Origin: Nitrospira sp.
GTDB taxonomy: Bacteria > Nitrospirota > Nitrospiria > Nitrospirales > Nitrospiraceae
Assembly: GCA_030123625.1 (NCBI GenBank)
Contig: CP126121.1
Span: 515,001 to 579,000 of the forward strand
Direction: 5' to 3'
DNA length: 64,000 bases
The stretch's first letter is position 1. Each line of letters opens with the position of its first letter. Position numbers and translations under genes: made by a program. This document shows positions 3,746 through 63,673 of this stretch, in pieces. The notes under the pieces were generated by a model, which ran no database searches, had not been told where the DNA came from, and saw nothing but the letters and a program-made list of their open reading frames with translations.

Positions 3746-4829
3746 CGAGAGCAGTGATCTTACGCTCCCTCGCACAAGCACGGCTGAAGAGATCGAGCCG
3801 ATCGGACGCTCTGAGTATCTTACTGTGGATGATGCAAAACTCTATCTGTTGACGCGCGGCAAGGATCGGCACGCCCCTGTCTTACTCTGGCTGCATGGCG
3901 GCCCTGGCGGAGCAGAGCGACCCTTATTCCGCTATTTCAACAGTGAGCTCGAAAACCATTTTGTCGTGGCCTATTGGGATCAACGCGGCGCTGGACGCTC
4001 GTTCGACGCGGATGCCGATCCACATCAGTTGACCGTCTCACGTCATCTTGCAGACTTGGATGCCGTCGTGGATCATCTCAGGAAAGTCCTCCGCCATGAC
4101 ACGATCGCGCTGATTGGTCATTCGTGGGGAGGGATGCTTGGGTTGCTGTACGTGCAGCAACATCCCGAAAAAGTATCTGCATTCGTTGCCGTGGCTCCGT
4201 TGATCGTCCCACTCAGGGCACAACAGGCGGAGTACAATTTCGTTTCGACCGAGGCGAGGATACGGAAGGAGGAATCGGTTCTGACGCGCTTGCAAGGAAT
4301 CGGCCCGCCAGCCTACGACACCCATGATCGCCTCTTGGAGCTGGAAGATCTGGCGGACAGATATGGCATGGTGTGGCACCGAAAACCATGTAAGATCTGC
4401 GTGGTCTTGAAGGGCTTGGTGACAGGTCTCGTGACCCCGTTTGAGCTCATGTCCATCCATCGCGGCATTCATACCTCGCTCGACGCGATGACACCGGAGC
4501 TACTAGGCCTGGACCTCGCGCGCACGGTGCCCTGTGTCGACATTCCTGTATGGTTCTTCCTCGGACGGCATGATCGACATGTAGACTCACGCATAGCGGC
4601 GAACTACTTCGACTCGTTGCATGCGCCGTATACGCATCTACTCTGGTTCGAAGAGTCCGCCCATAACATACCGTTCGAGGAACCCGAGAAATTCAATAGA
4701 GTCATGATCGAGGAGGCTCTTCCAGGAGCAACGGGATCAAAGAGCTGCGCCTGGAGGTTCTACGAGCTGCATCCTCCCGGCAATCGCTGTTTGATAGAGC
4801 GTCTCTACATCGACTGCATGGCACTGTAA
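3660..4829 (+). CDS. Alpha/beta hydrolase lipoprotein, proline iminopeptidase-like
   Basis: 389 residues. A lipoprotein signal (ITAFVVVLSLYGC) places it on the envelope. The hydrolase core shows the oxyanion motif LWLHGGPGG, the strand VAYWDQRGAGRSF, the nucleophile elbow IGHSWGGM (Ser), and late Asp (FLGRHDRHVD) and His (EESAHNIPFE) candidates. This order fits the prolyl iminopeptidase/S33 group. ATG 3660 is preferred over the adjacent GTG 3657. The last 30 residues after LPGATGSK look unlike the family and may reflect a shifted stop. Substrate unknown. Confidence 0.8.
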   Translation: MNLSWLPRITAFVVVLSLYGCIHTAPFRNESSDLTLPRTSTAEEIEPIGRSEYLTVDDAKLYLLTRGKDRHAPVLLWLHGGPGGAERPLFRYFNSELENHFVVAYWDQRGAGRSFDADADPHQLTVSRHLADLDAVVDHLRKVLRHDTIALIGHSWGGMLGLLYVQQHPEKVSAFVAVAPLIVPLRAQQAEYNFVSTEARIRKEESVLTRLQGIGPPAYDTHDRLLELEDLADRYGMVWHRKPCKICVVLKGLVTGLVTPFELMSIHRGIHTSLDAMTPELLGLDLARTVPCVDIPVWFFLGRHDRHVDSRIAANYFDSLHAPYTHLLWFEESAHNIPFEEPEKFNRVMIEEALPGATGSKSCAWRFYELHPPGNRCLIERLYIDCMAL

Positions 4830-5559: not shown

Positions 5560-5678
5560 ATCCTTATCTATCTGACGAGACGTCCCTTACGATGAGAGAT
5601 AACACAACGGTGTTCTTTTAGGGCCGAACTAGGGTATTTCCCGGCTTCCATGGAAGAACAAACGACTTATGCTATATC

Positions 5679-5790
5679 CAACAGGACCGGCAATGGAAAT
5701 ATTGTGAAGGCATAACGGAAACGTTATGTGCATGATATAAAGTTGCAAGTTCTGGGAGCTCCGCTTTCGAAAGAAAACGGAGCTTTTTTT
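5679..5790 (+). ncRNA. Candidate structured RNA, copy 1 (with its own terminator)
   Basis: Begins CAACAGGAC and ends in the T-run after the terminator. Helix 1 pairs 5683-5693 with 5743-5753 (nine pairs, a two-base internal mismatch). Inside it CAAT/ATTG makes a small hairpin, and CATAACG (5711-5717) pairs perfectly with CGTTATG (5722-5728) around a GAAA tetraloop. A terminator hairpin follows at once. The same layout and about 45 bases of near-identical 3' sequence recur at 63462-63576 on the other strand. The start of the next gene lies 24 bases downstream, so it could be a leader or an independent small RNA. Confidence 0.6.
5757..5790 (+). terminator. Intrinsic terminator of structured RNA copy 1
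   Basis: AGCTCCG (5757-5763) pairs with CGGAGCT (5778-5784) and is followed by a run of seven T. The loop contains the palindrome CTTTCGAAAG. A near-identical hairpin is at 63466-63495 on the minus strand. Confidence 0.8.
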
Positions 5791-5813
5791 ATTTATTGTC
5801 GGAGGCAAACGCT

Positions 5814-6008
5814 ATGACCATCACGCAGGCGGCTGAGTTGCGGGTGAAATGGAAACAGCAGGCTGATCCTTCCAAGTGCGAACACCTTAACCTTGAATTG
5901 GAATGGAGCGAAGGCGGGTATCCGACGGGGTATTATAACTGCATCGTGTGCGGAGAACACGTGGCCACGAAACGGCCCGGTGAGGATGCCTCAACCAAGA
6001 TTATCTAG
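5814..6008 (+). CDS. Small Cys/His protein (possible zinc knuckle)
   Basis: 64 residues starting at ATG 5814, chosen because GGAGG lies 9 bases upstream; a TTG six codons earlier lies before that site. It holds a CEHLNLE segment and a CIVCG pair spaced about 30 residues apart, which could bind one zinc ion. No membrane segment. It sits directly behind the terminator of structured RNA copy 1, which might control it. Family not recognised. Confidence 0.55.
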   Translation: MTITQAAELRVKWKQQADPSKCEHLNLELEWSEGGYPTGYYNCIVCGEHVATKRPGEDASTKII

Positions 6009-34489: not shown

Positions 34490-34648
34490 AAGACACGGAC
34501 TACTGGTCATATGCAAACACAGCAAGGGACATGCCGAGATGTATTGAGTCCTAAAACGGTAGCATGATCATCAGACGATGCGGCTGTGAGAGCAGGCGCA
34601 ATTTTAATATCTACAATATCGGATCGGCCAAGGACAAGGAGTAGAACG

Positions 34649-37519
34649 ATGCAGACACGTAACAGCATTGCCGATATCTGGGGAGCCCGCACGCCCTATC
34701 ACGGCCACTGGCCTGCGCGAGTCGATGAGCGGACGTTGGAGGCTCCGGATCGCTGGGTTCCGTCCGCCTGCGTACTTTGCTCGTTCGGCTGCGGCATCGA
34801 TATCGGCGTGAAGAACGGCCGCATCGTCGGCGTTCGCGGTCGTGAATTTGATCGGGTAAATCATGGCCGCCTTGGCCCCAAGGGTCTTCATGGCTGGGTC
34901 GCCAATCATTCAGCCGATCGACTGACGGTGCCGTTGATCCGCCGCAAGGGCGAATTGCAACCCGCGAGCTGGGACGAAGCCATGGATCTCATCGTCCGCC
35001 GGTCGAAAGAATTGATCGACCGTCATACGGCCCACTCCATTGCGTTCTACACGAGCGGCCAATTGTTTCTGGAGGAGTATTACACGCTGGCGATTATCGG
35101 CAAGGCCGGCATCGGCACGCCGCACATGGACGGCAACACGAGGCTCTGCACCGCGACGGCCGATTTTTCGCTGAAAGAATCCTTCGGCACAGATGGACAG
35201 CCCGCGTCATACGACGACATCGACGTGACGGACGCCATCATGGCGGTCGGCCACAACATCGCGTCGCAACAGACCGTGATGTGGATGCGAATTCTCGATC
35301 GGCGCGCCGGGCCCAATCCGCCCAAACTCGTCGTCATCGATCCCCGCCGGACGGAAACGGCGAAGCAGGCCGACGTGCATCTGGCATTGAAGGTCGGCAC
35401 GAACGTCGCCCTGCTGAACGGTCTGCAACATCTCCTCATTAAGTTCGGCTGTATCGATCGTTCCTTCATCGAGGACCATACCGTGGGCTTCGAGACACTG
35501 GCGCGACTCGTCTCGACCTGGACGCCGGACCGCGTCGAACGGGTAACCGGCGTGTCCGAGCGCGATCTGCGAAAGGCCGCGGCGATCATCGGCGAGAGCC
35601 CGACTGTGCTCTCCACCGTGCTGCAGGGCGTCTATCAATCGATGCAGGCCACGGCAGCCGCCGTGCAAATCAACAACATCCATTTGCTGCGCGGCATGAT
35701 CGGCAAGCCGGGCGCCGGCATCTTGCAGATGAACGGGCAGCCGACGTCGGAGAACACCCGGGAGTGCGGCGCGGACGGCGACATGCCGGGCTTCCGCAAT
35801 TGGGAGAATGAAACCCATATGCAGGAGGTGGCCGACATCTGGAATGTCGAGCGGCACACATTGCCGACGTACGCGCCGCCGACTCACGCGATGCAGATGT
35901 ACCGCTATGCGGAAGAAGGGACGATTCGGATGTTATGGATCAGCGGAACGAACCCGGCAGTGTCCCTCCCGGAATTAAGCCGCATCCGCAGCATCCTGGA
36001 CATGAACAGTCTTTTCGTGATCGTCCAAGATGCCTTCCGGACGGAGACGACCGAGTATGCGGACATCGTGCTTCCCACCGCCCTCTGGGCCGAAAAGACC
36101 GGCTGCTACACCAATGTCGATCGGACAGTGCATCTGTCCGAGAAGGCGATCGAACCGCCGGGTCAGGCGATGTCCGACTTCGACATTTGGCTGGACTATG
36201 CGCGACGGATGAATTTCTCGGACAAGGACGGCACGCCGCTCATCAAGTGGCGCACACCGGAAGAATGTTTCGAGGCCTGGAAAATCTGCTCGAAAGGACG
36301 GCCCTGTGACTACAGCGGCATGACCTATGCCAAGTTGCGCGGGCATGCCATTCAATGGCCGTGCAATGGCGAGGCGCCCGGCGGCACGACGCGGCTCTAT
36401 TCGAACCATCGGTTCAACACGCAGGCCGATTACTGTGAAACCTACGGCCATGATTTGACGACCGGCGCCGCCTATACACCGGAGGAATACCGTGCGCGCG
36501 ATCCTCAGGGCCGTGCGCAATTTCACGCGGCGGAGTTCCAACCGCCGCACGAGGAACCGGACGACGACTACCCCTTCTGGGTGACGACGGGGCGCATCGT
36601 CTATCATTTTCACACCAGAACGAAGACGGCCCGGTCGCGCGAATTGAACAATGCGGCGCCCGACGCCTTCGTGCAGATGCATGAGGACGATGCCGCGGAG
36701 CTCGGCGTGCGTGAAGGCGATTGGGTCCAAGTGGAGTCTCGCCGCGGCCAGGTGACGGCGCGCGCCACAATCGGCGACATCTTATCCGGGCACCTGTTCA
36801 TCCCGTTCCATTACGGCTATTGGGACGATCCCGGACGCATGCGGGCCGCCAACGAGCTCACCGTCACCGAATGGGATCCGGTGAGCAAGCAACCCTATTT
36901 CAAGCATGCCGTGGCGCGGGCGAAGAAAGTGTCCGGCTCGCCGACCGTGGAAAAGATCTCGGAGATCACCGCATCGGCCATGGGTCGGATGAAGGCCGCG
37001 GCAACCGAATTGATGGACACACCGGGCAAGGTCGCCAAAGCCATTGCGACCGCCGGGGACGAACGGCCCCTCAACGTTTTTCTCGGGATGACGGTTCAGA
37101 GCGAGCGCCAGTTGGCCGATGCCTTCCGGCAGGTCGGCCACAAGCATATGGCGGAGCCGGACATCCATGCGACGTGCCTGCTTATGGCCTCCTGGAGTCA
37201 GGGGCAAGCCGAAGCGCTGAAACCGTTCATCGCCGCCTATCACAAAACCAGGAGCGACAATCCCGACGGCTCGGCGACAAATTTATTCGACGGTCCGCGC
37301 AGCGGCGGTCTGGGACTCTTGCGGGATTTGCACGACCTTTGGTTGTCGGCGAATAACGTTCACCTCGGCTACGAAGCAGTCAAGCAAGCGGCCAAAGCTT
37401 TGCGCGATCAGGCGCTCGTCGAAACGTGCGAACGGTCTCTTCACGGCACGGACCGCCAAATCGCCTGGCTACGCACGCGCATCGACCAAGCCGCACCTCA
37501 GACGCTTGTGGTGTCGTGA
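34649..37519 (+). CDS. Molybdopterin oxidoreductase (nitrate reductase/formate dehydrogenase superfamily) with helical C-terminal extension
   Basis: 956 residues; AAGGAG before the ATG. An Fe-S motif CVLCSFGC (Cys41, 44, 48) is followed by GRLGPKGLHGW, where the usual fourth Cys is Gly76. The molybdenum ligand is most likely Cys167 in GNTRLCTATA, as in NasA/NapA-type enzymes. Further motifs: VVIDPRRTETAKQADVHLAL, GMIGKPGAGILQMNGQPTSE, and ADIVLPTALWAEKTGCYTN. The C-terminal domain with ANELTVTEWDP ends near 765. About 150 residues of helical sequence follow (LGLLRDLHDLWLSANNVHLG, VETCERSLHGTDRQIAWL), resembling a ferritin-like bundle. No Tat signal, so cytoplasmic. Substrate unknown. Confidence 0.85.
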   Translation: MQTRNSIADIWGARTPYHGHWPARVDERTLEAPDRWVPSACVLCSFGCGIDIGVKNGRIVGVRGREFDRVNHGRLGPKGLHGWVANHSADRLTVPLIRRKGELQPASWDEAMDLIVRRSKELIDRHTAHSIAFYTSGQLFLEEYYTLAIIGKAGIGTPHMDGNTRLCTATADFSLKESFGTDGQPASYDDIDVTDAIMAVGHNIASQQTVMWMRILDRRAGPNPPKLVVIDPRRTETAKQADVHLALKVGTNVALLNGLQHLLIKFGCIDRSFIEDHTVGFETLARLVSTWTPDRVERVTGVSERDLRKAAAIIGESPTVLSTVLQGVYQSMQATAAAVQINNIHLLRGMIGKPGAGILQMNGQPTSENTRECGADGDMPGFRNWENETHMQEVADIWNVERHTLPTYAPPTHAMQMYRYAEEGTIRMLWISGTNPAVSLPELSRIRSILDMNSLFVIVQDAFRTETTEYADIVLPTALWAEKTGCYTNVDRTVHLSEKAIEPPGQAMSDFDIWLDYARRMNFSDKDGTPLIKWRTPEECFEAWKICSKGRPCDYSGMTYAKLRGHAIQWPCNGEAPGGTTRLYSNHRFNTQADYCETYGHDLTTGAAYTPEEYRARDPQGRAQFHAAEFQPPHEEPDDDYPFWVTTGRIVYHFHTRTKTARSRELNNAAPDAFVQMHEDDAAELGVREGDWVQVESRRGQVTARATIGDILSGHLFIPFHYGYWDDPGRMRAANELTVTEWDPVSKQPYFKHAVARAKKVSGSPTVEKISEITASAMGRMKAAATELMDTPGKVAKAIATAGDERPLNVFLGMTVQSERQLADAFRQVGHKHMAEPDIHATCLLMASWSQGQAEALKPFIAAYHKTRSDNPDGSATNLFDGPRSGGLGLLRDLHDLWLSANNVHLGYEAVKQAAKALRDQALVETCERSLHGTDRQIAWLRTRIDQAAPQTLVVS

Positions 37520-58805: not shown

Positions 58806-59396
58806 TTACAAGAGGTATTGTCCGTACCACTCGACTGCAACACGCGCCACCTGTTCCATTGCGCCGGGCTCTTCGAACAGATGCGTGGCGCCGGGGATGA
58901 TTTCCAGTTTCTTTTGCCCAGGGAGCACCTGAAAGGCCTGTCGGTTCAGCTCGATGACAGGCGCGTCGTCTCCGCCGACGATCAGCAGCGTCGGAGCTCT
59001 CACGCGGGACAAAAAAGAGGCGGCGAGATCCGGGCGTCCGCCGCGTGAGACGACGGCTCGCACGTGATCGGGACGGGCTGCGGCCGCGATCAAAGCGGCG
59101 GCGCTTCCGGTGCTCGCGCCGAAGAAGCCCAGCGGCAGCGCCGACAGTTCCGCATGGAGGCCGTACCAGTCGGTCAGTCCGATAAGCCGCTCGGCGAGCA
59201 TCTCGATATTGAACCTGAATTCCATCGTGCGAAGATCAATCTGTTCTTCTTCTAGTGTCAACAGATCGACCAAGAGCGTCGCAAAGCGATCCTGCTGTAG
59301 TCATAGCGATTGCGAGGACTATGCCGGCTGCTGCCGCTGCCATGGGCGAAGAAAACCAAGCCCCTCGCATGCTCGGGGATCGCGAGGTCGCCGACA
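58806..59396 (-). pseudogene. Dienelactone-hydrolase-like domain, broken near its N-terminus
   Basis: From 59273 down, 155 codons are intact: IEMLAERLIGLTD, LGFFGASTGSAAALIAAAAR (nucleophile Ser in GAST), VVSRGGRPDLA, PTLLIVGGDDAPVIELNRQA and PGATHLFEEPG with His. The preceding part ([20 protein letters not shown]) lies in another frame with a small deletion after PRNRY. Usually this hydrolase joins a phosphoribosyltransferase in one protein; here it is separated by an esterase fragment. The C-terminal part could still be expressed from its own ATG, but without the N-terminal strands. Confidence 0.7.
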
Positions 59397-63389: not shown

Positions 63390-63461
63390 TGTGCCTCGAT
63401 GATTCTTGTCACAACCGGACACCCCCTATTCATCTTGGAACCTGGTCCGTGACCGATCGAA

Positions 63462-63576
63462 TAAAAAGCTCCGCTCTCTTTCGAAAGCGGAGCTTCCCAG
63501 GACTTACAAGTTTTTTCGTTATGGCCTCTCACGTTTCCGCGGGAGATTCACAACGTTGTTCTTGTAAGTCCTGTTG
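63462..63576 (-). ncRNA. Candidate structured RNA, copy 2 (with its own terminator)
   Basis: On the minus strand it starts CAACAGGACTTACAAG. Helix 1 is a perfect 13-base pairing of 63561-63573 with 63498-63510. An inner AACAA/TTGTT hairpin and a second hairpin (63526-63545; eight-base stem with one C-A and one G-U pair, GAAA loop) follow, then a terminator. Bases of the GAAA hairpin stem differ from copy 1 while pairing is kept. Lies between the acyltransferase gene and the proline-rich gene. Confidence 0.6.
63466..63495 (-). terminator. Intrinsic terminator of structured RNA copy 2
   Basis: Ten-base perfect arms 63466-63475 and 63486-63495; on the minus strand the hairpin is followed by TTTTTAT. 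Nearly identical to 5757-5790. Confidence 0.8.
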
Positions 63577-63673
63577 ACTCTACGTTAACGTCTTTCTCCT
63601 TCAGCTCCTACGGGTAAAGTCCCTAGAACGTATTGAAATGTCCTACCACGTATTCCGGACGGATCATTGGGAT

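Follow-up and report, generated by a model that had tools for sequence, protein, structure and literature searches.

Short structured RNAs of a predicted, hitherto uncatalogued family in nitrite-oxidising Nitrospira

The genome of a Nitrospira sp. (G000) carries at least five copies of a short gene that we predict, from sequence comparison, to encode a folded RNA; the genes form a family, not catalogued before, in these nitrite-oxidising bacteria. Two of the copies lie in the 64,000-nucleotide stretch analysed here (the window) and three lie elsewhere in the genome. The repeated unit of ~165 bp consists of a promoter, a rod-like RNA core of ~75 nt and an intrinsic terminator, and very probably represents an autonomous, intrinsically terminated small RNA (sRNA) gene with a predicted product of ~115 nt. 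The initial annotation of this DNA had called the RNA duplicated, which understates its copy number, and had missed the multi-copy family, the common promoter and the stress-island setting.

Fold and covariation

Both copies marked in the initial annotation were present with the features listed for them, copy 1 at window positions 5679–5791 (plus strand) and copy 2 at 63459–63576 (minus strand). In each, three helices stack into a rod that ends in a GAAA tetraloop, and a second hairpin with a T-run follows directly. Both fold strongly: the minimum free energy was −47.1 kcal/mol for copy 1 (shuffle mean −22.1, z = −8.15) and −63.1 kcal/mol for copy 2 (shuffle mean −25.5, z = −10.99), well below the shuffles, with 0 of 200 equalling either value, and z was still −6.5 and −7.9, respectively, when the terminator was removed.

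Fold and covariation place the structured core of copy 1 at 5679–5754 (+). Within it, helix H1 pairs 5682–5687 with 5749–5754 and 5690–5694 with 5742–5746, loop A (GGAA, 5695–5698) lies opposite 5739–5741, H2 pairs 5699–5706 with 5731–5738, H3 pairs 5710–5717 with 5722–5729 and the GAAA tetraloop occupies 5718–5721; the intrinsic terminator hairpin and T-run, conserved in the RNA family, follow at 5755–5791 (+). On the minus strand, the core of copy 2 (long H1, H2, H3 and GAAA tetraloop) spans 63495–63576 and scored 109.1 bits with our first covariance model (R1, below), and its terminator, located by the fold, spans 63459–63496. Helix 3 differs in sequence between the copies and keeps its pairing, as had been noted from the outset. 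The element TTGTGAA had been placed between helices; TTGTG is instead the 5′ strand of H2, and only the AA stands in the junction.

Aligning further copies gave strong covariation, which supports the earlier reading that structure is kept by selection while sequence varies. In a model-fitted alignment (A3), double changes occurred in 36 of 38 pairs, 92% of cells paired, and the covariation score was 0.452 versus 0.239 ± 0.007 when shuffled and at most 0.105 with slid partners. Because A3 leans towards structure, 45 copies were additionally aligned with MAFFT alone; from this alignment, RNAalifold gave the same helices, with compensatory changes in 24 of 30 pairs. The core alignment (A5) scored 0.427; shuffling lowered this to 0.245, and sliding the partners to 0.121 or less. 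Alignments A3 and A4 used unaltered DNA; for A5, and for the second covariance model (R2) trained on it, one inserted base was removed from each of two copies (L058 and L063) and one flanking base was added to three others.

Conservation peaked in the unpaired parts, at 1.79 bits in the GNRA loop and 1.67 and 1.54 bits in the sides of loop A; outer helix 1 had 0.63 bits. The tetraloop was GAAA in 52 cases, GAGA in 4, GCAA in 3 and GTGA in 1, variants which indicate that GNRA, and not one fixed sequence, is kept. That this is a real, conserved RNA is, in our judgement, almost certain.

Copies and boundaries of the gene unit

Searched at the nucleotide level, 59 related genomes yielded nine matching sites, spread over four genomes within the genus and including three in G000. 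At E ≤ 0.001, model R1, built from eight copies in unaltered DNA, had 57 matches distributed over 14 of the 79 genomes searched from the genus Nitrospira, so the additional copies that the initial annotation had proposed looking for do exist. G090 held 14, G091 held 9 and G000 held 5, those outside the window being C1:647173–647285 (+), 4162382–4162498 (−) and 2167826–2167943 (−). At the level of the phylum, R1 also gave clear matches in g12, g17 and g24 and a weak one in g14, all further genera of the family to which Nitrospira belongs, and reached two genera from a different family, one strongly (G367, 4.7e-15) and one weakly. R2, which models the core without its terminator, recovered the same copies, including that in G367 (2.3e-16). 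Most genomes of the genus are without the RNA, which is therefore not essential to the lineage. Scanning 84,980 species genomes for the pattern gave 84 matches, and only Nitrospira records scored above 24 bits as this RNA; two pattern matches in viral contigs did not score as this RNA.

Multi-copy, hairpin-rich, intergenic and clustered sequences might be a dispersed repeat or a mobile element of the MITE or REP kind, and 12 of the 14 copies in G090 do lie inside 550 kb, a concentration equalled in 0 of 20,000 draws of random placement. The boundaries of the unit, however, are a promoter and a terminator. We examined 40 loci whose flanks are unrelated, 30 of which have a scorable motif. Their information content was ~0 upstream of the promoter motif, which lies 45–53 nt before the RNA, and was back to zero about 10–20 nt beyond the RNA 3′ end, past the T-run. 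What is conserved is thus promoter, RNA and terminator, which fits a gene rather than a transposable element. The plasmids and phages searched held no match to the RNA, and its helices covary between copies that are only 56–88% identical within one genome, the opposite of recent mobilisation. We consider a mobile element highly improbable.

Degenerate or tandem extra RNA copies were also seen, in L086 at about 2580–2762 (−) and in L155 at 678–786 (−); some of these have the promoter without the terminator, and we read them as decaying paralogues.

The RNA might instead be a cis-acting leader or attenuator of the gene downstream. A small ORF (window 5814–6008) starts within 23 nt of the T-run of copy 1, and in one genome a terminator-less core behind the same promoter (L060:4171–4296) runs straight into a Shine–Dalgarno (SD) sequence and ATG. 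Neighbouring genes showed no orientation bias, however (downstream, 20 co-directional and 18 opposite; upstream, 19 and 20; the same 40 loci), which argues that the RNA is not a leader, and no downstream gene is common to the copies. The terminator was present at 42 of the 43 R2 matches within the genus at E < 1e-4, all 42 coinciding with R1 matches that include it, and the sole R2-only match is a degenerate copy (G016:C77:2638–2714). When the mRNA leaders of eight genomes were searched with the core model, the matches were nearly all sRNA genes, degenerate copies and the one terminator-less leader. A leader role is, in our view, very unlikely, and our results side with the preference first expressed for an autonomously terminated small RNA: the unit has its own predicted promoter, with motif and −10 at a fixed distance, and its own intrinsic terminator.

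Two observations concern the ORFs just mentioned. The whole L060 element (4171–4401; G007:C29 at about 58866–59096) consists of the promoter, a shortened terminator-less core, SD and ATG, and a 35-aa ORF; it is apparently an sRNA unit turned into promoter plus leader. The small protein encoded at window 5814–6008, just after the copy 1 terminator, has CEH and CIVCGE motifs that look zinc-ribbon-like by eye, and had no Pfam match.

Promoter class and stress-island setting

The predicted promoter reads TTAGGGRnTTTyCCCAGTACC, 17–19 nt, TAnnnT, and at 49 of 59 copies its motif exceeded the 99% point of the null. At copy 1, the motif (a putative activator/−35 site) lies at 5628–5649 (+) (ACTAGGGTATTTCCCGGCTTCC; position weight matrix (PWM) score 12.0, versus 7.8 at the 99% point of shuffled upstream regions). 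The −10-like hexamer TATGCT (TAnnnT) follows 18 nt past it at 5668–5673 (+), a spacing common to the RNA and protein genes, and transcription would be expected to start near 5680. At copy 2, on the minus strand, the motif lies at 63606–63627 (TCTAGGGACTTTACCCGTAGGA; PWM 14.8), with TAACGT at 63582–63587, again 18 nt past the motif.

We scored promoters with a PWM that holds no −10 information, as an IUPAC pattern with three mismatches was too insensitive. In 295 kb of island DNA, at loci picked for holding the RNA so that the count is not an estimate of regulon size, the PWM marked 42 sites; reversing it gave 11, permuting its columns 1–8, and dinucleotide-shuffling the DNA 3. Setting aside the sites flagged as RNA genes left 36, a few of them RNA genes nevertheless; 25 of these 36 have TAnnnT 17–19 nt downstream, against about two expected by chance. 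In the stress islands around the copies, about 20 protein genes also have a promoter of this class. Genes behind motif sites encode DUF4142 (L064), OsmC, glgC-like and holin-X-like proteins and, in another genus, a small secreted protein without a Pfam match (L229). Sites with both motif and −10 upstream of protein genes include L064:2793–2814 (−), L059:5803–5824 (−), L243:9008–9029 (−), L242:5835–5856 (+), L242:10062–10083 (+) and L229:4709–4730 (+). We propose motif plus −10 as a candidate stress regulon promoter of Nitrospira, and it is quite likely that an activator-dependent promoter of this class is common to the RNA and the stress genes.

Within the motif, the dyad TTAGGG-N5-CCCAGTA is centred near −42, a position that would be typical of class II activators; its half-site spacing presumably differs from that of the DosR box. 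HisKA_3 histidine kinases with receiver domains adjoin copies at four loci (L237, L238, L239 and L241), and because such kinases adjoin several copies, the activator is plausibly a two-component response regulator. At L240, however, the receiver proteins adjoining the copy lack a DNA-binding domain, and a regulator of the Crp type (L240:595–1245) is encoded nearby.

Genes around the copies encode Usp, DUF4142, hemerythrin, OsmC, CBS and DUF1328 proteins. Between the two window copies lie genes for a universal stress protein, GH65 and HAD sugar enzymes, two DUF4142 proteins, BrkB, a zinc alcohol dehydrogenase, a CBS-domain protein and PRPP synthase, and the region may represent a stress or dormancy island. 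DosR-type regulons also contain Usp, Hsp20 and CBS genes. Given that its promoter class is common to nearby stress genes, the RNA is probably a stress regulator.

Two further features of these regions were noted. The window contains a formate-dehydrogenase-like ORF at 34586–37519, and a small secreted protein family recurs beside RNA genes (L238:11212–11526, L229:4785–5114 and about ten other loci), with the pattern AADPMxEKEA...IKGTLMxIEGEYYxIKDxDG and no Pfam match.

Known RNAs and possible modes of action

Among 4227 Rfam families, none reached its gathering score in the window, and only tRNAs did so in 20 loci with copies, which upholds the initial view that the RNA is unlike known riboswitches. 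None of the three outcomes that the initial annotation had named as refuting it (no further copies, no covariation, a known Rfam family) was therefore seen. Sub-threshold matches were weak; the best, to GcvB (30.5 bits versus a cutoff of 42), covered the whole RNA length in one copy and probably reflects mostly terminator similarity. Our literature search of open-licence papers found no sRNA study of Nitrospira and no matching Nitrospira sRNA.

As the best explanation overall, we propose, and on balance think probable, an autonomous sRNA gene family that is driven by a stress activator, binds protein and sets dose by copy number. An activator, plausibly a two-component response regulator, would switch on many copies together with stress proteins; the RNA would act by binding a protein through its conserved tetraloop and internal loop; and copy number would set the dose, as RsmX/Y/Z or CsrB titrate CsrA. 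Protein binding, taken as a step by itself, is suggested by the conservation of the loops and seems to us quite possible.

One candidate partner is CsrA/RsmA itself. The GGAs of loop A and the apical loop, ~22 nt apart, could together hold one CsrA dimer, and many copies would titrate it under stress. GGA is found in both loops in 44 of 69 aligned copies, with a modal spacing of 22 nt, and in at least one loop in 61; CsrA is encoded in 64 of 77 genus genomes, with one copy in G000; and the RNA, like RsmX/Y/Z, is multi-copy and appears activator-driven. Eight of the 69 copies have GGA in neither loop, however, and the ANGGA consensus is not matched, A and G being about equally frequent at the −2 base before GGA (in loop A, G 24 and A 21). 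The apical GGA lies inside the GNRA tetraloop with one G paired, and the GAGA, GCAA and GTGA variants retain GNRA and lose GGA. The presence of CsrA does not track that of the RNA, so that co-occurrence is uninformative; the promoter differs from the GacA box; and no CsrB/Rsm clan model reached its gathering score (RsmY, 17.9 bits versus 57). Because the −2 position shows no preference for A over G, and copies that have lost GGA still keep GNRA, we do not place the RNA in the CsrA-titrating family; CsrA is a possible but half-fitting partner, and titration of it is unlikely.

The resemblance to CsrB/CsrC and RsmX/Y/Z (Rfam clan CL00106) lies in several free-standing copies per genome, an activator-type promoter, GGA in loops and an intrinsic terminator, and the Nitrospira RNA would also act by protein titration. 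Those RNAs, in contrast, carry many GGAs and ANGGAN hexaloops, whereas the Nitrospira RNA has two GGAs, a GNRA tip, a rod fold and no GacA box. Another stable stress-regulon sRNA is DrrS/MTS1338, which is DosR-regulated in Mycobacterium tuberculosis (PMC5360333); it has one copy there, whereas the Nitrospira RNA has many.

The paralogues could alternatively be trans-acting antisense sRNAs that pair with different mRNAs without Hfq. Being free-standing, terminated, stress-linked and diverged between paralogues, they resemble sibling sRNA families such as OmrA/B, LhrC and Qrr, whose members are likewise under a common regulator. Those siblings, however, carry single-stranded seeds and usually need Hfq. 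The Nitrospira RNA is almost wholly paired, with no long unpaired conserved stretch that could serve as a seed, and Hfq was not detected by PF17209 in 19 Nitrospirota genomes, including G000, whereas control genomes matched. These two observations favour protein binding through the loops of the rod over antisense pairing. We hold antisense action without Hfq to be improbable.

Returning to protein binding, a more specific and more tentative proposal is that the RNA belongs to a new protein-binding class, read by its partner at the GNRA tip and at the GGAA/AAAA internal loop. In Nitrospira lacking Hfq, this RNA might be the arm that sets the dose in a stress regulon under activator control, its copies increasing to 14 as a stress island grew.

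In soils and treatment plants, Nitrospira are the principal nitrite oxidisers, and their post-transcriptional regulation appears little described. Through this RNA, which covaries, is present in many copies and has a defined promoter class, the stress regulon of bacteria that are hard to grow would become directly accessible, and a covariance model of the RNA is ready for use in annotation. The family may also inform RNA regulation where Hfq is not detected.
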